Source: Chitinophagaceae bacterium IBVUCB1
GTDB lineage: Bacteria; Bacteroidota; Bacteroidia; Chitinophagales; Chitinophagaceae
DNA: 64,000 bases
Direction: 5' to 3'
NCBI GenBank assembly: GCA_002127285.1
Contig: NFUW01000002.1
Span: forward strand, 768,744 to 832,743
Positions within the stretch are counted from its first letter, which is position 1, and each line of letters begins with the position of its first letter. The notes under the pieces were generated by a model. The model had not been told where the DNA came from. It ran no database searches and saw nothing but the letters and a program-made list of their open reading frames with translations. A program made the position numbers and the translations under genes. Shown piece by piece: positions 29,989-37,626 of the stretch.

Positions 29989-30024
29989 AACTAATCCCAC
30001 CATATTGAGTGGGATTAGTTTTTA
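29989..30024. terminator. Bidirectional terminator between lysS and trmH
   Basis: Twelve-bp perfect stem AACTAATCCCAC/GTGGGATTAGTT (29989-30000 and 30009-30020) with an 8-nt loop. It is flanked by A-tracts on the left and T-tracts on the right, so it can end transcription from both sides; the trmH stop codon abuts it. Confidence 0.8.
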
Positions 30025-30630
30025 TTCAAAGCCTTCTGTTTCTGCACCAACAAGTCCCCATTTATCAGCTAAAGCTGCACGTTGCTCAATCGGTAACCTA
30101 GTTTCTCCATTGTACATCCCCTTTGCTTCACGCTGACGGTATGCTTCATAAAGCGATACAGCACATGCCACGGATATATTGAGTGACTTCACCATACCCA
30201 CTTGCGGTATTACAAAATTTCCATTACAATACTGTAAACATTCTTCTGTAACGCCTGCATGTTCATTACCAAATACTAAAGCTACAGGTTGTGCCATATT
30301 CAATTCGTACAAAGACACAGCTTGCTTGCCAAGATGAGTAGCGTATATGTTGTGAAACTTTTCCTTAACTGCAGCCATACACTCAGCCGTATTATCAAAC
30401 TGGTGAATAGTGAGCCATCCCGCCGCGCTGGCAGAACTTTTCTTGCCAAATTTGGCATGGCGTTTAATGATATTGTTCAGCACAAATATTTCTTGAATAC
30501 CCACAGAATCGCAAGTACGCATTACGGCAGCTATATTATGAGGGTCAAATATATTTTCCATTACAACCGTCAGGTCAGGCTGGCGGTGTGTCAATACCCT
30601 TGTTATACGTTCTCTTCTTTCAGGTGTCAT
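30022..30630 (-). CDS. trmH: tRNA (guanosine-18-2'-O)-methyltransferase
   Basis: 202 residues, a SPOUT-fold enzyme. The start MTPERRERITRVLTHRQPDL and the next block DPHNIAAVMRTCDSVGI follow TrmH. The knot region is VALVFGNEHAGVTEEC, then VIPQVGMVKSLNISVACAV with the Asn-Ser-type SAM contact. It methylates the ribose of G18 in tRNA. Convergent with lysS. The match is stronger to TrmH than to the RlmB branch because the N-terminal substrate-binding domain of RlmB is absent. Confidence 0.88.
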   Translation of the reverse strand: MTPERRERITRVLTHRQPDLTVVMENIFDPHNIAAVMRTCDSVGIQEIFVLNNIIKRHAKFGKKSSASAAGWLTIHQFDNTAECMAAVKEKFHNIYATHLGKQAVSLYELNMAQPVALVFGNEHAGVTEECLQYCNGNFVIPQVGMVKSLNISVACAVSLYEAYRQREAKGMYNGETRLPIEQRAALADKWGLVGAETEGFE

Positions 30631-30670: not shown

Positions 30671-31066
30671 TTAATTAAAATGCTCTAAAACAACCGAAAT
30701 GGCGTTATTAGTCAGCGGTTTGTTTAAAAACTGTTTTACTGAACTATAGCCTTTTACTTTTGCTATATCATTCTCATTAATGGAAGAAGATAACATGTAA
30801 ATAGAATAGCCTTGCCTGATAGCTTCGGGTAAATTTTCAAAAGCTTCTACAAACTCAAAACCATTCATAACAGGCATTTGTATATCTACAAAAACAACGG
30901 TTTGTGTAGTAGTTACTGGTAAGGTTTTAATATAAACTAGCGCATCTGTAGCCTGTTGAAAGGCATTGACAGTTTCAGACCTACCTGTATTTTTTATTAT
31001 TTTCTCTGCAATAAAGCAGTCAAGCTTACTATCGTCTACTACTATAAAATTTAAAGGAGTGTTCAT
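30671..31066 (-). CDS. Stand-alone receiver-domain response regulator
   Basis: 131 residues, one CheY-like receiver and nothing else. The acidic pair is D11-D12 (FIVVDDSK), the phosphorylated residue D61 (VVFVDIQMPVMNGFEF), the signalling residue is Ser in MLSSS, and the conserved Lys is K116 (FLNKPL). As a single-domain regulator it should pass phosphate on or act by protein contact. It is the last gene of a five-gene run and begins 3 bp after the receiver-kinase hybrid, so it is a likely partner of the kinases upstream. Confidence 0.88.
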   Translation of the reverse strand: MNTPLNFIVVDDSKLDCFIAEKIIKNTGRSETVNAFQQATDALVYIKTLPVTTTQTVVFVDIQMPVMNGFEFVEAFENLPEAIRQGYSIYMLSSSINENDIAKVKGYSSVKQFLNKPLTNNAISVVLEHFN

Positions 31067-31069
31067 TGT

Positions 31070-32161
31070 TTACTTACTTGGTATTGTAACTATAAAAGTA
31101 GTGCCTTCACCGGGCTTAGATTGTACGTCTATCTTTCCATTCAACTTGCCTAACGCATCTTTCACATTGTACAAACCAAAGCCAGAGCCAACTTCTTCAT
31201 TCGTAGCTCTGAAGAACATATTGAATATCTGTCCGATATTATTCTCATGTATGCCTATGCCATTATCTTTTACTGCAATAATAGCCTGACCTTTAATAAC
31301 TTCAATATTCAGATTAACTAACTTATCGGCTTTGCTTTTCTGCTGATATTTAAACGCGTTTGACAATAAATTGTTTAGAATAATCTTCAATGACACATCA
31401 TCTGAACGAAATGTTTCAGTTTGATTAACAATATAGTCAAACTTTACATTGTTCATCTTACTTGTTACTTCGTAAATATCGCATACTTCTTTAGATAGGT
31501 CTGCAAATTGTATATCTTCTATCTCTACTTCGCCACGGCGGATACTATAATAATCGTGCAGGTTTTGTATGTAGTTATCCAATCGCAACATAGCATTCTC
31601 CATCATATCCAGCATGCTCTTTATCTCCGCTACATCGTCTGTGTTTTTAGACAGGTCTATAATGCCTAATACGCTCAATATAGGGCCACGCATATCGTGT
31701 GTGGCACTATAGGCAAACTTATCCAACTCGTTATATGCCTTCTGTAACTCTTCGTTTTTTATGGCTAATAATGCAGTAGTAATATAAAACTTATGTGCCT
31801 GGTCTATTGAGGAGCGTATATCTTCTTCAGACCACGGTTTTTTAATATACCTGAATACATGCCCACGGTTGATGGCATTGATTACTGACTCTATATCTGC
31901 GTATCCGGTGATTAATATCCTGACAGGATTGGGAAATTCTTTGCGTATTTCCTCAAAAAATTCAACACCTGTTTTATCAGGCATTTTCTGGTCGCTCAGT
32001 ATTACGCTTATATCAGGGTTCTGTCGTAGATGGTTGATAGCCTCATCTGTATTATTGGCTATATAAACATTGTAGTCAAAACGGAATGATGCTTTGAAAC
32101 TGACGAGATTATTCTGCTCGTCATCAATGTATAGTACCTTTATTTTATCCTTACTGCTCAC
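31070..32161 (-). CDS. Receiver-histidine kinase hybrid (REC-HisKA-HATPase)
   Basis: 363 residues, soluble. Receiver domain at about 8-122 with D13-D14, phosphorylatable D57 (VILSDQKMPDKTG) and K108; a short helix; HisKA with H155 in YSATHDMRGPILS; and a HATPase_c domain at about 255-360 (ILNNLLSNAFKYQ, AVKDNGIGI, GSGFGLYNV). The order receiver first, kinase second means its kinase is probably controlled by phosphate received from another kinase. The start is a GTG overlapping the stop of the upstream sensor kinase (TAGTG), giving tight coupling. Its receiver is close to the stand-alone protein at 37162. Confidence 0.9.
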   Translation of the reverse strand: MSSKDKIKVLYIDDEQNNLVSFKASFRFDYNVYIANNTDEAINHLRQNPDISVILSDQKMPDKTGVEFFEEIRKEFPNPVRILITGYADIESVINAINRGHVFRYIKKPWSEEDIRSSIDQAHKFYITTALLAIKNEELQKAYNELDKFAYSATHDMRGPILSVLGIIDLSKNTDDVAEIKSMLDMMENAMLRLDNYIQNLHDYYSIRRGEVEIEDIQFADLSKEVCDIYEVTSKMNNVKFDYIVNQTETFRSDDVSLKIILNNLLSNAFKYQQKSKADKLVNLNIEVIKGQAIIAVKDNGIGIHENNIGQIFNMFFRATNEEVGSGFGLYNVKDALGKLNGKIDVQSKPGEGTTFIVTIPSK

Positions 32162-34326
32162 TAAGCAATATTTAAATTTTGATGGATAATCGGAATTTCA
32201 ATGATAAACTCAGTACCTACTCCCATTTCAGAATTTACGGTAATTGTACCATTATGTTTCACAATAGTATTATATGCAATTGACAATCCCAAACCAGTAC
32301 CCTCACCTACATCTTTTGTAGTAAAGAAAGGTTCAAATAACTTTTTCTTTGTTTCTTCGGTCATACCCGTACCGTTGTCCCTCACGCTTATTAATACGTT
32401 TCGATCATTAGCACTGGTAGATATGGTTAATGCCCCACCCTTTTCCTCCTGATACCTTGCTTTTATAGCATACAAGGCATTAGAAATTATGTTCATAAAT
32501 ACCTGGTTTAGTTTGCCGGGGTAGCACTCTACTAAAGGCAATTCTGAATATTGCTTAATTATCTCTATCCTGTTGTCAAGTTGATTATTGACTATTACTA
32601 ATGTAGAATCTATACCATCGTTAATGTCGGCACGTTTCAAGTCGTCTTCGTCAAGACGAGAGAATATACGCAACCCTTTTACTATTTCGGCAGTTCGGCT
32701 GGAGCCTTCATTAATACCATTTATCAGGTAGTCAATTTCAGTTTTCAGGTAATCGAAATCGTATTCCTGTTTTAAATCTTCAATCTGTTGTTTTTTATCC
32801 TCCAAAGTGCCATCAGACAATGAAATACCTTCAATCTGATTAAGCATTTCAATCACCATTTCTACGTCGCGCTTCAATGGTTTTACATTTGAAGTAACAA
32901 AGTTTATCGGATTATTAATTTCGTGAGCTATACCTGCTGTCAACTGACCAAGCGATGCCATTTTCTCAGACTCTACCAGTTGCATCTCTGCTTCTTTCAA
33001 GTCTTTCAGGGTTTTGTTCAGTTCATCGTTCGATGCCCTTAATTCTTGAGTGCGTTCTGTTACTTTTGCCTCAAGCACTACGTTTTGTTCTCTTACTATG
33101 CGTGCATTCTCTTCTACGGCCTTCAAGGTTTGTGCTTGCGCAACTTCTCTTTCTTTTCTAAGAATATTAATTTTATCAGCCAATGCAAATGACAGCAACA
33201 CTACTTCGATAGCAGAGCCGATGGCTAAAATGGAAGAGGTAAAGTTGTTATATGCAAATACACCAAAGTCTTTTAAAACAAATACAGTAGCTCCTAATAA
33301 CAAAATCGTCCATGCTACAATAAAAAACAATGCAGACTTGTTCCCTTTCTTTAGTACTACGAAAGACAGATACAATACATATAGAGAACCAACAATAGTA
33401 TTTAGTTGCATCACGCTAAAGCTGAGCATTTTCAGTCCAGCGAAAACTGCAACTATGGCAAATACAAATATACCAATCAGGATATTCAGGCCTTTTGTTA
33501 GTTTAGGGGCTAATATGCGCGTTTGCAAAAACTCCTTTACAAATACCATGGCAGCAAGGCCGCCTAATGAGGGAAAAAGGTAAACGCTGTTTTGCGCCAT
33601 CCAAGTAGAGCCGGGCCAAAGAAAACGAAACGCATAACCTGACAAACTCGCTTGCGATAGTGCCAATGCGAGAATGTATAAAACATAGTACAGATAGCCT
33701 TTATCCTTTGTAGTAAAGTATATGAACAGATTATAAAATAGCATCACTAATATGATGCCAAAGAATAGCCCGTAAATCACGTCTTTATTCATTAAAGACT
33801 CAAAAACAGACTTGGTATCACCTACAAACATGGGTAACACCATCTGTTCCCCACTCTTTACCCTTAAATAAAAAGTTTGTGTCTCTCCTTGCTCTATGTC
33901 AAGAGCAAATACATGGTTCTGGTTGTTGTATAAACGCTCGTTATATTTTTTAAATTCACCCTCTGCCTGTTTCGTGATACTACCATCCGGTTTAATACTA
34001 TATAATATCGCCTCGTCTATAGTGGGTTGGTCTAATTCAAGCAATAGTTTATTATTCCTGGTGTTGTTTTGTATCTGAAACCTAACCCAAAATGCATTAG
34101 GGCTTACACCTAAATTGGGAACATCTGAGAATGACTCCTTAAATCGCTGAGAATTAATAACATCAGGCAACGTCATTTTGCCTGTCGAATCTTCAAAAAT
34201 AGCAACATACTTGCCTATTGATTTTGTAATCCCATCGTTTGAAAAAGACAAGATAGGCTGCGCTACGGACTTGAAACCTTGTAATAGTAATAAGAAGAAA
34301 ATCAATACGACTTTCAGGTAATTCAT
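32161..34326 (-). CDS. 7TMR-DISM sensor histidine kinase
   Basis: 721 residues. After a signal peptide (VVLIFFLLLLQGFKSVAQ) comes an extracytoplasmic 7TMR-DISMED2 beta domain (about 30-165, with VPNLGVSPNAFWVRF). Seven membrane segments follow (about 180-385), then a coiled coil (about 390-455). HisKA follows (GQLTAGIAHEINNPINFV, His at about 467) and HATPase_c (NIISNALYAI, VRDNGTGM, GTGLGLSIAY). The DISM sensor is thought to bind small molecules, often carbohydrate-like. It sits between the oxidase gene (57 bp) and the receiver-kinase gene (overlap) in the putative signalling operon. Confidence 0.92.
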   Translation of the reverse strand: MNYLKVVLIFFLLLLQGFKSVAQPILSFSNDGITKSIGKYVAIFEDSTGKMTLPDVINSQRFKESFSDVPNLGVSPNAFWVRFQIQNNTRNNKLLLELDQPTIDEAILYSIKPDGSITKQAEGEFKKYNERLYNNQNHVFALDIEQGETQTFYLRVKSGEQMVLPMFVGDTKSVFESLMNKDVIYGLFFGIILVMLFYNLFIYFTTKDKGYLYYVLYILALALSQASLSGYAFRFLWPGSTWMAQNSVYLFPSLGGLAAMVFVKEFLQTRILAPKLTKGLNILIGIFVFAIVAVFAGLKMLSFSVMQLNTIVGSLYVLYLSFVVLKKGNKSALFFIVAWTILLLGATVFVLKDFGVFAYNNFTSSILAIGSAIEVVLLSFALADKINILRKEREVAQAQTLKAVEENARIVREQNVVLEAKVTERTQELRASNDELNKTLKDLKEAEMQLVESEKMASLGQLTAGIAHEINNPINFVTSNVKPLKRDVEMVIEMLNQIEGISLSDGTLEDKKQQIEDLKQEYDFDYLKTEIDYLINGINEGSSRTAEIVKGLRIFSRLDEDDLKRADINDGIDSTLVIVNNQLDNRIEIIKQYSELPLVECYPGKLNQVFMNIISNALYAIKARYQEEKGGALTISTSANDRNVLISVRDNGTGMTEETKKKLFEPFFTTKDVGEGTGLGLSIAYNTIVKHNGTITVNSEMGVGTEFIIEIPIIHQNLNIA

Positions 34327-34383
34327 TGCAGCATATTTACAGCTAACAAAATAGCTTCTTTATCATTATGAAACAAATATTGG

Positions 34384-35994
34384 CTACAGAATATTATATC
34401 TGCCCGGTGCCATGATATTATTCGGGTCGATTGCTTGTTTAATTTTTGAAAGAAATCGTATATATGAATCGTCAATACCAGCTTTGCTTTTCATTTGCAT
34501 ACCCATAGTAGTGTCCCTATAAGGGAAAAAACCATTTTCTTTTAGGGTGCTATTTAACTCTGCATAACATGCAGCGGCTAACTCGTCTTCTCCCTCAGCT
34601 TCTCTGTCCCAGTTTATAGACCCTATAATATTTATGGCACGCTCCGTCATGCATTGCAATGAAATGGCGGGCTCAAAAGGGTATTTGTAAACAATATTGT
34701 TGATAATGTCTATAGCCTTGCCAATGTCGTGCCCTGTGAATGGGACAATGGGCGAAAACCATATCATGCCACATTTATCCGCATCAGGGTTCATTATTTC
34801 GGGCAATGGTTTACGTTTGCGCCAATAGGTCTGTTTTATGGGGGTATTTTCAGGAATACCTATATATTTTCTGAGCAAATAAGAACGCAAAGCATCTGCT
34901 TCCCTATCGCCCGTTATACCATTGTAATGATTATGCAGTGTTTGCAACATTTCTTCCTTAGCAATTTCTACAACAAATAGCTCATCCACAAACGGTTTTA
35001 ATTCAGCTTCAATAATCGAAGCCTGAATATGCCCGTGTTCTTTACTTACAGAGCGGATGCTAATCTCTCCATTCCAGGTATTGGCTAAAGGGGCAAATGG
35101 AGTTGTTTTACGAATTACTTCCAATACCTCATTTGGATGGGTTTTACCAGGAGTACAACTATCAAATGGGTATTGCATAACAGTAGATAGCACCCTAAAG
35201 TCATTGTACATTGTAATGGTAGGCCGCACTAACCCACTGGCAGTCAAGTCCTGCAATTTGTCCATTAATGCAGGCAGTCTATTATTATCTTTCAGCCTGT
35301 ATGCGACTAATTGAAAATATTCCGGCAATTTCATCAACCATTGCGTTAATTTGGTTACAATTCCAAAATTTGATTGTGAAAATAAACCATCAATAGATGG
35401 TCCTGACCCCCACCTATAAACATTTGTTGCTGTATGGCTACCATACCTTGCAAAACCAGAAGCTACCAATTCTCCATTCGGAAGCACTGCCTCTATACCG
35501 CACACTGATGCAAAGCGGTCGGCATACAATCCGGTACCAATCCCCCTCTCAATAGCATTGCCAACAAGGCTGGAGCCAGTACTACCACCAGTAGCACTCA
35601 GTATTAATTCCGATTTTTTTTCTCTTAAAAATTCAAATAATTGCTGAAACGTAACCCCCGGCTCTAATGTTACATAACCTAATTGTTCATTGTAATCTAG
35701 TATCCGGTTCATATTGCTCAACTCTACCAATATGCTGTTATCAGCTACAGGCACTCTTGAACCATAGCCCCAATTGCAACCACGGCTGATTGGATAAACA
35801 GGTATAGCAAATTCATTTGCCAACACAATACATTGCTGCAACTGCTCTGTATTTGCAGGCTTTATTGACAAACGAATTTTCTGATTTGTATGATAATTTG
35901 TGGTTTCAGCAGCTTGCAGATACGCCATGTCCGTTAACACATTATCATCTCCAACTATGTCTTTAAGCTTTCGTACCAATATATCTTGTTCCAT
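34384..35994 (-). CDS. FAD-binding oxidoreductase, VAO/PCMH family
   Basis: 536 residues, cytosolic. The FAD-binding PP-loop domain at about 10-240 has YPISRGCNWGYGSRVP, GYVTLEPGVTFQQL, LSATGGSTGSSLVGNAIERG and YADRFASVCGIEAVLPNG; the substrate cap follows, and the end DPNNIMAPGRYN is family-typical. The stretch GPSIDGLFSQSNFGIVTKLT matches p-cresol methylhydroxylase and vanillyl-alcohol oxidase closely, so a 4-substituted phenol or similar donor is likely. A covalent FAD link cannot be judged from sequence. It lies 6 bp after the GNAT gene and 57 bp before the sensor kinase. Confidence 0.85.
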   Translation of the reverse strand: MEQDILVRKLKDIVGDDNVLTDMAYLQAAETTNYHTNQKIRLSIKPANTEQLQQCIVLANEFAIPVYPISRGCNWGYGSRVPVADNSILVELSNMNRILDYNEQLGYVTLEPGVTFQQLFEFLREKKSELILSATGGSTGSSLVGNAIERGIGTGLYADRFASVCGIEAVLPNGELVASGFARYGSHTATNVYRWGSGPSIDGLFSQSNFGIVTKLTQWLMKLPEYFQLVAYRLKDNNRLPALMDKLQDLTASGLVRPTITMYNDFRVLSTVMQYPFDSCTPGKTHPNEVLEVIRKTTPFAPLANTWNGEISIRSVSKEHGHIQASIIEAELKPFVDELFVVEIAKEEMLQTLHNHYNGITGDREADALRSYLLRKYIGIPENTPIKQTYWRKRKPLPEIMNPDADKCGMIWFSPIVPFTGHDIGKAIDIINNIVYKYPFEPAISLQCMTERAINIIGSINWDREAEGEDELAAACYAELNSTLKENGFFPYRDTTMGMQMKSKAGIDDSYIRFLSKIKQAIDPNNIMAPGRYNIL

Positions 35995-36000
35995 CTTCTA

Positions 36001-36708
36001 CTATAAATTTGGGATTTTCAAATCATATACTACATCAAGAGTGCGCCCTTTCGGACCCGTTTCATATTTATGCTGAAAAGGCTGCTTCCTTAAATCAAAT
36101 ATTATTTCCCTCTCTTCAGTTTCAGCAGTAGGCAGGTTTTCTGTATCGTTTATTATTACTGCGGTAGCTATCAGGTCTTCTTTTGGGTAGTAAAATGTAC
36201 CGTTATTACCCAAGAAAGTGGCAATTTCAAAGCCTACACGTGCACTGTTTTTCACTGTTGCAGGAGCACATAAGCCAAACATAGTAGTAAGCCTTAGCTG
36301 CTCTGTAATGGCAACAGCAGCTCTGCCAAGGTACATACTGCCAATGCCTAAACCTGCTACTTCCCTGCTATTCCACAAGCCACAAAACTCAGCAGTACCT
36401 CTTGTTGCGTAGTCCTTTACAGCATCATGTACGCTGGTGTCCATATCTTTTACCGCCTTTTCAATAGGTAGTTGATACCTGCCACCTGCAACTTGAACAC
36501 GAGCACCACCGTACACTTTTTCTCCGTCTTCAGACTCTACTAATATTACGTAAGTATCGGGGTCTTCAAACCACTCTACGTTAGCAGAGGTTATCATAGT
36601 TATACCGTATATCTTTAACACCTTCATATGCCCATCAACAAATTTGTGGCAAGACAACTTGTCATCAGGTGCCCTGAAAGCTTTTATAACAATTTTTATA
36701 TCACTCAT
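36001..36708 (-). CDS. GNAT-like protein resembling LuxI/FeeM acyl-transferring synthases
   Basis: 235 residues, no signal peptide. The arrangement resembles autoinducer and N-acyl amino acid synthases. A mid-sequence strand ends in GEKVYGGARVQ, like the position in LuxI where substrate-proximal strand residues precede an Arg. A later segment (AEFCGLWNSREVAGLGIGSM) carries the Glu/Arg-like pattern and glycine turn, and RLTTMFGLCAPATVKNSARV matches the helix-strand after the acyl-CoA/ACP site. No plain GNAT R-x-x-G-x-A loop is seen. It is the first gene of a run with the oxidase and phosphorelay genes. The fold call is moderate; the reaction is a hypothesis. Confidence 0.5.
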   Translation of the reverse strand: MSDIKIVIKAFRAPDDKLSCHKFVDGHMKVLKIYGITMITSANVEWFEDPDTYVILVESEDGEKVYGGARVQVAGGRYQLPIEKAVKDMDTSVHDAVKDYATRGTAEFCGLWNSREVAGLGIGSMYLGRAAVAITEQLRLTTMFGLCAPATVKNSARVGFEIATFLGNNGTFYYPKEDLIATAVIINDTENLPTAETEEREIIFDLRKQPFQHKYETGPKGRTLDVVYDLKIPNL

Positions 36709-37161
36709 ACCTCGAATGCAACATAATTGGTATTGATAGATAAGGGCATTCTCTTGTTTGCTTGTCTGAGTGTAGCAGAAATGCAGTGTTTTTTACTCAA
36801 TGTTTCGAAAATGCAGTTATCAACCTCTATATTATCTGTAATAGGTTACAATATTTGCAAACTACTCGCTAATAAAATTCAACATTAATGTACAGAAATA
36901 ATTCTACAATACCAATCGCTATGCTAAATTGCAGCCATTATGACATATGAATTTGAATGCAATTTCTGATACAATCGTTTTGCAATGTATCGCTTGTGCA
37001 CTTCGTTCCTCAGGTATTATAAAATCAAAATTAACCACCGGTGTTATTAAAATTCAAAAAAAAACTACATAAAACATCGAAATCCGATTTCGTATGCTTA
37101 ACTTGTAGTAAGAATAGCCTTGTAACTTTACCCCAATATTATCTTAATAAGAGCTTAATAC
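36709..37161. other. Divergent intergenic region with palindromes
   Basis: 453 bp between the GNAT-led operon and the divergent receiver gene. AT-rich, no open frame of note. It contains the palindrome-like CGAAATCCGATTTCG (37078-37092) and CACCGGTG (37036-37043), both possible operator sites. The minus-strand promoter of the operon is not obvious by TAnnTTTG matching, which may mean dependence on an activator or another sigma factor. Confidence 0.4.
37103..37130 (+). promoter_or_regulatory. Possible promoter of the receiver gene
   Basis: TTG (37103-37105), then after 17 bp TAACTTTA (37123-37130), one mismatch from TAnnTTTG, 31 nt before the ATG at 37162. It lies just after the CGAAATCCGATTTCG palindrome. 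Confidence 0.35.
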
Positions 37162-37626
37162 ATGGCAGAAAATAAAATAAGTGTATTGTACGTTGATGAT
37201 GAGCAAAATAACCTCATCTCCTTTAAGGCTACTTTTCGCATTAAATACAATATATATACTGCCATAAGCGGAGAAGAAGCTATAAAAATACTAAACAATA
37301 ATCCCATAGATATTATCATAACAGACCAACGAATGCCAAACATGACGGGAGTTCAGTTTTTAGAATCAATACTGGAAAGCTACCCCGACCCCATGCGCAT
37401 ACTCCTTACAGGATATGCTGACTTAAATGCAGTTATTGATGCTGTTAATAAAGGCAAGATTTTCCATTATCTCACCAAGCCATGGAATGAAGAAGAATTA
37501 GACATGACTATCAAACGAGCTTTCGAGGTATACACACTTCGCAGAGACGAAAAAGAATTGACTGAAAAACTTGGCGTTACAAACGCACAACTTGAGTTTT
37601 TGCTAAGGCAGCAACTATTGTCATAA
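37162..37626 (+). CDS. Stand-alone receiver-domain response regulator
   Basis: 154 residues. The receiver is complete: D12-D13 (VLYVDDEQNN), phosphorylatable D55 (IIITDQRMPNMTG), the Thr of LLTGYAD and K106 (HYLTKPW). A charged helical tail of about 35 residues (RRDEKELTEKLG and on) replaces an output domain and may dimerise. The receiver is very like the N-terminus of the receiver-kinase hybrid at 31070-32161 (DDEQNNLISFKATFR versus DDEQNNLVSFKASFR). It is divergent from the signalling operon, and could be a phosphate sink or alternative partner. Confidence 0.88.
   Translation: MAENKISVLYVDDEQNNLISFKATFRIKYNIYTAISGEEAIKILNNNPIDIIITDQRMPNMTGVQFLESILESYPDPMRILLTGYADLNAVIDAVNKGKIFHYLTKPWNEEELDMTIKRAFEVYTLRRDEKELTEKLGVTNAQLEFLLRQQLLS

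Follow-up and report, generated by a model that had tools for sequence, protein, structure and literature searches.

A Bacteroidota operon joining a FeeM-fold protein to a membrane kinase, with exchangeable tailoring enzymes and a variable sensor half, as a candidate self-sensing signal system

Main

In Vibrio, the LuxM synthase gene adjoins the gene of the receptor LuxN, and the receptors LuxN and AinR are membrane kinases. In the AinS/AinR pair of the same genus, the synthase gene lies directly upstream of the receptor gene, the two are co-transcribed, and both diverge more than most other genes (PMC5601948; papers with PMC numbers are cited from excerpts throughout). The ComQXPA system of Bacillus, the signal of which is a peptide, has a variable modifying enzyme and a variable N-terminal part of its kinase (PMC4008528). 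A different chemistry is encoded by the acyl-oxazolone clusters, TyzACB and TrzAS (mycobacteria and Rhodococcus), OxzAB (Pseudoalteromonas) and the NasY clusters (Stieleria, Massilia and Thalassotalea), in which an N-acyltransferase is found beside a ThiF cyclase and a nitroreductase-type desaturase. Here we analyse an operon in a 64,000-nucleotide stretch of contig NFUW01000002.1 of Chitinophagaceae bacterium IBVUCB1 (hereafter the window), which encodes a predicted N-acyl amino acid synthase with a FeeM-like fold, a flavin oxidase of the vanillyl-alcohol oxidase (VAO)/p-cresol methylhydroxylase (PCMH) family, a 7TMR-DISM histidine kinase (DISM kinase), a receiver–kinase hybrid and a stand-alone receiver, with a further receiver gene diverging from it. 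We read it, at a probability of roughly 0.6, as a self-sensing small-molecule signal system.

Each of these systems resembles the operon in part. The Vibrio pairs have the same gene arrangement, but their synthases belong to another family with another product, they have no gene for a tailoring enzyme, and the sensor here is instead composed of DISMED2 and 7TM domains. ComQXPA has the same two variable parts, whereas the modifying enzymes here are non-homologous alternatives. Of the enzymes in the acyl-oxazolone clusters, most relatives of the window operon carry ThiF or ThiF-nitroreductase proteins of the Rv1355c/TrzS type; the window itself has a VAO oxidase instead, and the genes described here are tied to a DISM kinase. 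Excerpts of the three main acyl-oxazolone papers, searched with terms that differed by paper, yielded no link to a kinase or two-component system, although the trz paper proposes a signalling role for oxazolones and notes cyclic-di-GMP genes beside trzAS (PMC12856293). The component types are thus already known, and it is the combination of N-acyl synthase/ThiF chemistry, a synthase–receptor pair and a variable sensor that appears to be new: among the matches listed from the open-licence literature, we found no report of a synthase–ThiF–DISM kinase operon, nor of the three features joined.

Conservation of the synthase and kinase genes

The neighbourhood of the synthase gene was compared in 42 named loci from a contig scan for the synthase, 22 loci of related genomes and 11 loci from a phylum-wide draw. 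Among the 33 unnamed loci, nine (L072-L079 and L081) duplicate a named locus, so that these 75 views correspond to 66 distinct records, besides the window. In 74 of the 75, a DISM kinase gene follows downstream of the synthase gene in the same orientation, either directly or after a single tailoring gene (41/42 named loci, 22/22 from related genomes and 11/11 from the phylum draw); the single exception, L040, ends at a contig edge. This consistency places the link between synthase and kinase beyond chance. It also shows that the neighbourhood is not unique to this genome; a gene order confined to this genome was the outcome that the earlier note on this DNA, made from the sequence alone, had named as one that would speak against its proposal of a signalling operon.

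Across the genome of the window and its relatives, the synthase was found in 23 of 59 genomes, and kinase orthologues scoring above 500 bits were found in exactly those 23 (19 candidates were scored in most genomes, and in G001 the kinase gene is divided between two contigs). Three congeneric genomes, G002, G008 and G012, which are 98, 91 and 91% complete, contain neither synthase nor kinase, and their sole matches to the divergent receiver are distant (at most 64.2 bits). The phylum draw yielded the synthase in 13 of 395 genomes, the own genome included. The plasmid search found no relatives of the synthase.

The hybrid gene adjoins the DISM kinase gene in 40 of the 42 named loci; contig ends truncate the remaining two. 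The divergent receiver was found near the operon in 26 of the 42, with a weak match in L008, and was not seen in the Chitinophaga loci. The conserved core is composed of synthase, kinase and hybrid. All 42 named loci are in records titled as Bacteroidota except L003 (JANLJF010000075.1), which is titled as an Azovibrio restrictus metagenome-assembled genome; its operon is 99-100% identical to that of the Bacteroidota-titled L004, and the record is probably a binning error.

Predicted fold of the synthase

Sequence families do not name the synthase, and its assignment as GNAT-like consequently rests on structure. With the window protein, no Pfam family passes its cut-off and no NCBIfam model gives a match; its match to DUF3182 scores 16.8 bits (cut-off 26), and PF13444 was absent from the own genome in the Pfam search. 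At an E value of 0.01 or better, 4 of 38 synthase homologues match DUF3182 (best 6.5e-5) and 2 match the GNAT model Acetyltransf_1, and the LuxI sequence family is not among the Pfam families matched by any of the 38. The sole phmmer match in the PDB was a sugar-binding protein (E 0.92), which was set aside as unrelated.

The AlphaFold2 (AF2) model, built from 38 homologues, has a mean predicted local distance difference test score (pLDDT) of 88.7 and a predicted template modelling score (pTM) of 0.88. FeeM chains rank first among its PDB matches (E 7.8e-8), with TM-scores, normalised by target length, of 0.72-0.80 over the six chains listed; they are followed by the acyl-homoserine lactone (AHL) synthases BjaI, MesI, EsaI, RpaI and LasI; from rank 13, ordinary acetyltransferases such as SpeG are mixed in. 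On this model, the protein almost certainly has a FeeM-like fold and falls within the GNAT/autoinducer-synthase folds common to FeeM and the AHL synthases, with the qualification that ordinary GNAT acetyltransferases match from rank 13 as well. The LuxI/FeeM-like fold proposed in the earlier note is thus borne out by the very structure comparison that could have overturned it. Identity to FeeM in the structural alignment is 13-14%, and FeeM is not known to be tied to a kinase. The model of TyzA, the mycobacterial N-acyl-tyrosine synthase, is likewise closest to FeeM and BjaI (PMC10404671). Given this fold, the window protein quite likely makes an N-acyl amino acid.

Interchangeable tailoring enzymes

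The enzyme encoded beside the synthase differs between loci. The named loci contain a fused ThiF-nitroreductase (20), ThiF alone (18), a VAO oxidase (3) or, at one contig-edge locus, the nitroreductase end only. In the related genomes, ThiF-nitroreductase (13), VAO (3), ThiF (3) and an S-adenosylmethionine (SAM) methyltransferase (1) were found, and two loci had no such enzyme; the phylum draw added ThiF (6, one of which, L124, is a short contig showing only the ThiF end), ThiF-nitroreductase (3) and an ICMT-type methyltransferase (2). The VAO and methyltransferase genes sit between synthase and kinase, as does ThiF alone in 15 of 18 named loci. By contrast, the ThiF-nitroreductase gene occupies this position in only 5 of 20 named loci (L003-L006 and L008); in the remaining 15 it lies upstream of the synthase gene. 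The methyltransferases, of Methyltransf_25 and ICMT type (L083:8956-9717, L120:7262-7903 and L122:8203-8844), suggest methylation of the product.

The ThiF-nitroreductase of L003 scores 780.9 bits against the NCBI 'Rv1355c family' model (cut-off 476), and the ThiF of L018 scores 468.1 bits over half of the same model. Rv1355c is TrzS, which cyclises and desaturates N-acyl-tryptophan to an oxazolone (PMC12856293). In the same search, 13 of 59 genomes passed the cut-off; the best match in the own genome, 41.6 bits over a ThiF-like stretch only, leaves it without an Rv1355c-type protein. The window accordingly does not hold the combination of acyltransferase, ThiF cyclase and nitroreductase-type oxidase that defines a tyz/trz cluster. 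The earlier note had treated synthase and VAO oxidase as a small-molecule-making pair. The synthase half of this proposal is upheld by the fold and by the kinase neighbourhood; the oxidase, on the other hand, is not a fixed partner, and its place is mostly taken by ThiF or ThiF-nitroreductase.

The window oxidase has the FAD domain of the family and is similar in both halves to 8s7s (phmmer E 7.7e-65), which we take to be a 4-ethylphenol oxidase, and to p-cresol methylhydroxylase (E 1.8e-58), as expected of a VAO/PCMH flavoprotein. Its phenol-binding residues Tyr77, Tyr492 and Arg493, which correspond to Tyr108, Tyr503 and Arg504 in VAO numbering as read from the alignment to 8s7s, are kept in 5/5 aligned copies. 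The role of this Tyr/Tyr/Arg triad is described for a set of VAO enzymes (PMC10404669; residue roles also from PMC5646868). The FAD domain and the triad are common to the window oxidase and to vanillyl-alcohol oxidase, eugenol oxidase, 4-ethylphenol oxidase and PCMH, from which it differs in two replaced residues, considered below, and in its signalling-operon context. An AF2 model of the oxidase was poor (pLDDT 50.9) and was not used.

VAO relatives were also seen elsewhere. A homologue (49% identical) lies outside the signalling operon at L101:8364-9998 and L102:1706-3340; the L101 copy has a His at the flavin-linking position and adjoins a gene that reads like a proline dehydrogenase, and L102 has a like copy. 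Distant relatives (<60% identity) were found on 75 plasmid records, and no VAO relative was found in the phage search. One plasmid relative of 36% identity (L129; NZ_CP104168.1, 34558-36168) belongs to the endosymbiont Candidatus Megaera polyxenophila and is flanked by transposase genes, one of IS200/IS605 and one of the Tn3 family.

Discordant histories of the two kinase halves

Among close relatives, variation in the sensor half of the kinase tends to follow that of the biosynthetic genes, and variation in the kinase half that of the flanks. Between the window and L003, which has another enzyme, identity is high in the divergent receiver (87%), the synthase (87%), the kinase domain (77%) and the hybrid halves (87/78%), but much lower in the extracellular domain (28%) and the 7TM part (52%), with an identity step near residues 360-390 of the kinase. 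Pairs with the same enzyme differ less in the sensor: window and L002 are 88% (synthase), 60% (sensor), 82% (7TM) and 88% (kinase) identical, and L003 and L005 are 87, 48, 74 and 78% identical, respectively. The pattern is clearest in L009, which is near to the window in its flanks (glycosyltransferase family 2 (GT2) gene 79%, receiver 86%, hybrid 87/78%, kinase 79%) and far from it in the cassette (synthase 57%, sensor 35%, 7TM 46%). Its cassette is nearer to that of L010 (synthase 77%, sensor 49%, 7TM 61%), from which its flanks differ (GT2 60%, hybrid 69/68%).

Trees and approximately unbiased (AU) tests were made for 17 chosen loci and the window. The tree of the N-terminal kinase part joins L009, L010, L012 and L080 (support 100/98) and rejects the flank grouping (AU p 1.8e-8). 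The synthase tree gives the same grouping (91/87) and also rejects that of the flanks (p 0.002); the L009 group recurs, with support of 100/100, in a tree built from 19 ThiF-nitroreductase proteins. Conversely, the C-terminal kinase part rejects this cassette group (p 8.4e-4), as do the joined flanks (p 7.6e-6) and the hybrid (for which the reported p, 8.9e-49, is taken only as 'rejected'). In the tree of the N-terminal kinase part, the four VAO loci likewise form one group (89/91), and this part rejects a grouping of the window, L001 and L002 with L003/L005/L006 (p 0.016); the VAO grouping is in turn rejected by the synthase (p 0.030) and by the flanks (p 0.039). A single shared history of the two kinase halves is thus rejected, strongly for the L009 group and modestly for the VAO group, and biosynthetic gene and sensor have a history unlike that of the kinase part, the pattern expected of specificity (pherotype) switching.

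Operon organization

The ORF coordinates (Table 1) agree throughout with the layout described in the earlier note: five minus-strand genes, separated from synthase to receiver by 6 bp, 57 bp, a 1-bp overlap and 3 bp, and a receiver gene diverging from the synthase across 453 bp. The exception is its count of the latter as a fourth receiver gene; it is the third receiver-bearing gene, because the DISM kinase has no receiver. The gene order and domain assignments are certain. HisKA matches in the DISM kinase (22.4 bits) and in the hybrid (23.8 bits) are just below the Pfam cut-off of 26.9. The DISM kinase was the single match, and hence the sole DISMED2 protein found, in a PF07696 search of the own genome. 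An alignment of the divergent region from six sequences of close relatives has a mean column identity of 52%. PADLOC assigned no family to the six proteins at E 0.001. A SpoU-type RNA methylase gene (30022-30630) follows the last receiver gene by 40 bp; it was matched in 2 of the 42 named relatives only (L001 and L002; some loci are cut short) and for this reason is probably not part of the system.

Table 1 Features of the operon and its surroundings in the window.
Feature	Coordinates	Strand	Basis
GNAT/FeeM-fold protein of the conserved core, predicted to be an N-acyl amino acid synthase	36001..36708	-	AF2 model and structure search; 42 relatives
VAO/PCMH-family flavin oxidase, interchangeable tailoring enzyme of this genome	34384..35994	-	FAD_binding_4, 78.8 bits
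7TMR-DISM histidine kinase, predicted receptor	32161..34326	-	Pfam 7TMR-DISMED2, 7TMR-DISM_7TM, HATPase_c
Sensor and 7TM half of the kinase (tree partition, residues 1-370)	33217..34326	-	Domain-wise identity, AU tests
Receiver-histidine kinase hybrid	31070..32161	-	Pfam Response_reg, HATPase_c
Stand-alone receiver, found in some of the loci	30671..31066	-	Pfam Response_reg, 44 bits
Divergent receiver protein	37162..37626	+	Pfam Response_reg, 74.8 bits
Divergent intergenic region	36709..37161	.	No clearly conserved block among close relatives

Proposed mechanism and alternative explanations

In the mechanism that we propose, the FeeM-fold protein would N-acylate an amino acid, most likely an aromatic one, as the fold and the accompanying enzymes lead us to infer. 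A tailoring enzyme would then finish the product. In most relatives this would be a ThiF cyclase, either alone or fused to a nitroreductase desaturase, yielding acyl-oxazolones; in the window, the VAO-type phenol oxidase would probably oxidise the side chain of an N-acyl-tyrosine at the benzylic carbon. VAO acts via a quinone methide (PMC10404669), which here might rearrange to N-acyl-dehydrotyrosine or be trapped internally; dehydrotyrosine is a tentative, rather doubtful assignment for the VAO product. As a quinone methide formed on N-acyl-tyrosine would yield N-acyl-dehydrotyrosine, and as the nitroreductase TyzC desaturates N-acyl-tyrosine in excerpts of its report, the presence of VAO may represent one desaturation route replaced by another. 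The product would reach the periplasm or the medium and bind the DISMED2/7TM part of the adjacent kinase, from which the signal would pass to the receiver–kinase hybrid and on to the receivers. Substrate, product, export, binding, phosphotransfer and output are inferred; that the product is sensed by the adjacent kinase we consider, on balance, probable.

Oxazolones racemise easily. For this reason, the N-acyl tyrosines and N-acyl phenylalanine yielded by an Olivibacter strain, described as Bacteroidetes, as D/L mixtures of 1:16, 1:1.7 and 1.6:1 (PMC8433624) could be oxazolone breakdown products.

Several observations weigh against this mechanism. Where 8s7s has His-His, 4/4 operon copies of the oxidase have Ile-Asn, and the window copy has no catalytic Asp at the base position (L007 and L101 have an Asp a few residues on); the counterparts of His422 and Asp170, which are invariant or almost so across the VAO set (PMC10404669), are thus both missing from the window, which makes phenol oxidation by this enzyme a homology guess. 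No curated sequence family for FeeM-type N-acyl amino acid synthases matched the synthase, two loci pair synthase and kinase without a tailoring enzyme, and the Pfam search found no DNA-binding domain in any receiver on the output side. On the evolutionary side, the clades compared were named after a first look at the trees. Fast evolution is usual for sensor domains, with pairs of loci that have the same enzyme as the sole control for it here; the own genome, in which one DISMED2 protein was found, offers no DISM paralogue to serve as a divergence control. The AU tests for the VAO group are modest and the synthase tree is poorly resolved; the synthase moved with the cassette in the L009 case and stayed in the VAO case. 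The extracellular domain of L007, a VAO locus, is 41-42% identical to those of the other VAO loci and 43% to that of L009, which has another enzyme; the 7TM part (60-62% versus 50%) and the tree alone group L007 with VAO. An L008-like source for the L003/L005/L006 cassette was rejected (p 0.043).

Other explanations make different use of the same genes. Kinases often control neighbouring biosynthetic genes, and the operon could accordingly serve a regulated natural product, with an N-acyl amino acid acting as an antimicrobial or surfactant and the kinase sensing an external cue such as membrane stress or a competitor lipid, and not the product. Related N-acyl tyrosines are antimicrobial, and stress links have been proposed for oxazolones (PMC12856293). 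An external cue, however, gives no clear reason for the sensing half to share its history with synthase and ThiF-nitroreductase and not with its own kinase half, as it does in the L009 group and more weakly in the VAO group, and we therefore regard this explanation as unlikely. A rather less probable variant has the kinase sense the product only as feedback or self-protection in the producing cell, with no signal passing between cells. The tight operon coupling would suit it, as would the distribution of Trz pathway products, of which the tryptazolones are more abundant in cells and acyl-tryptophan is found mainly in the medium (PMC12856293); yet the sensor family is described as extracellular (7TMR-DISM extracellular 2), and strong sensor variation between close relatives is more typical of population-level signals.

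It is most improbable that the operon senses and oxidises environmental aromatic compounds, with VAO acting on 4-alkylphenols, the acyltransferase modifying amines and the signalling genes responding to phenols. 4-Substituted phenols are indeed substrates of the family, and the window enzyme retains the phenol-binding triad, but most loci have beside the synthase a ThiF, a ThiF-nitroreductase or a methyltransferase, none linked to environmental phenols, or no enzyme at all. A self-sensing small-molecule signal remains the reading that we prefer.

Implications

The operon ties predicted N-acyl amino acid chemistry to a dedicated membrane kinase and thereby offers a genetic handle on this chemistry in genera with named isolates such as Chitinophaga. 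In its widest form, for which we put the odds somewhat short of even, the system would represent a new family of Bacteroidota quorum sensing that uses N-acyl amino acids. Its dialect would change whenever one finishing enzyme gave way to a non-homologous one along with the sensor half of the receptor, the kinase half and the relay being retained. If so, the exchange of unlike enzymes along with the sensing half of a receptor would be an unusual route to new signal specificity.

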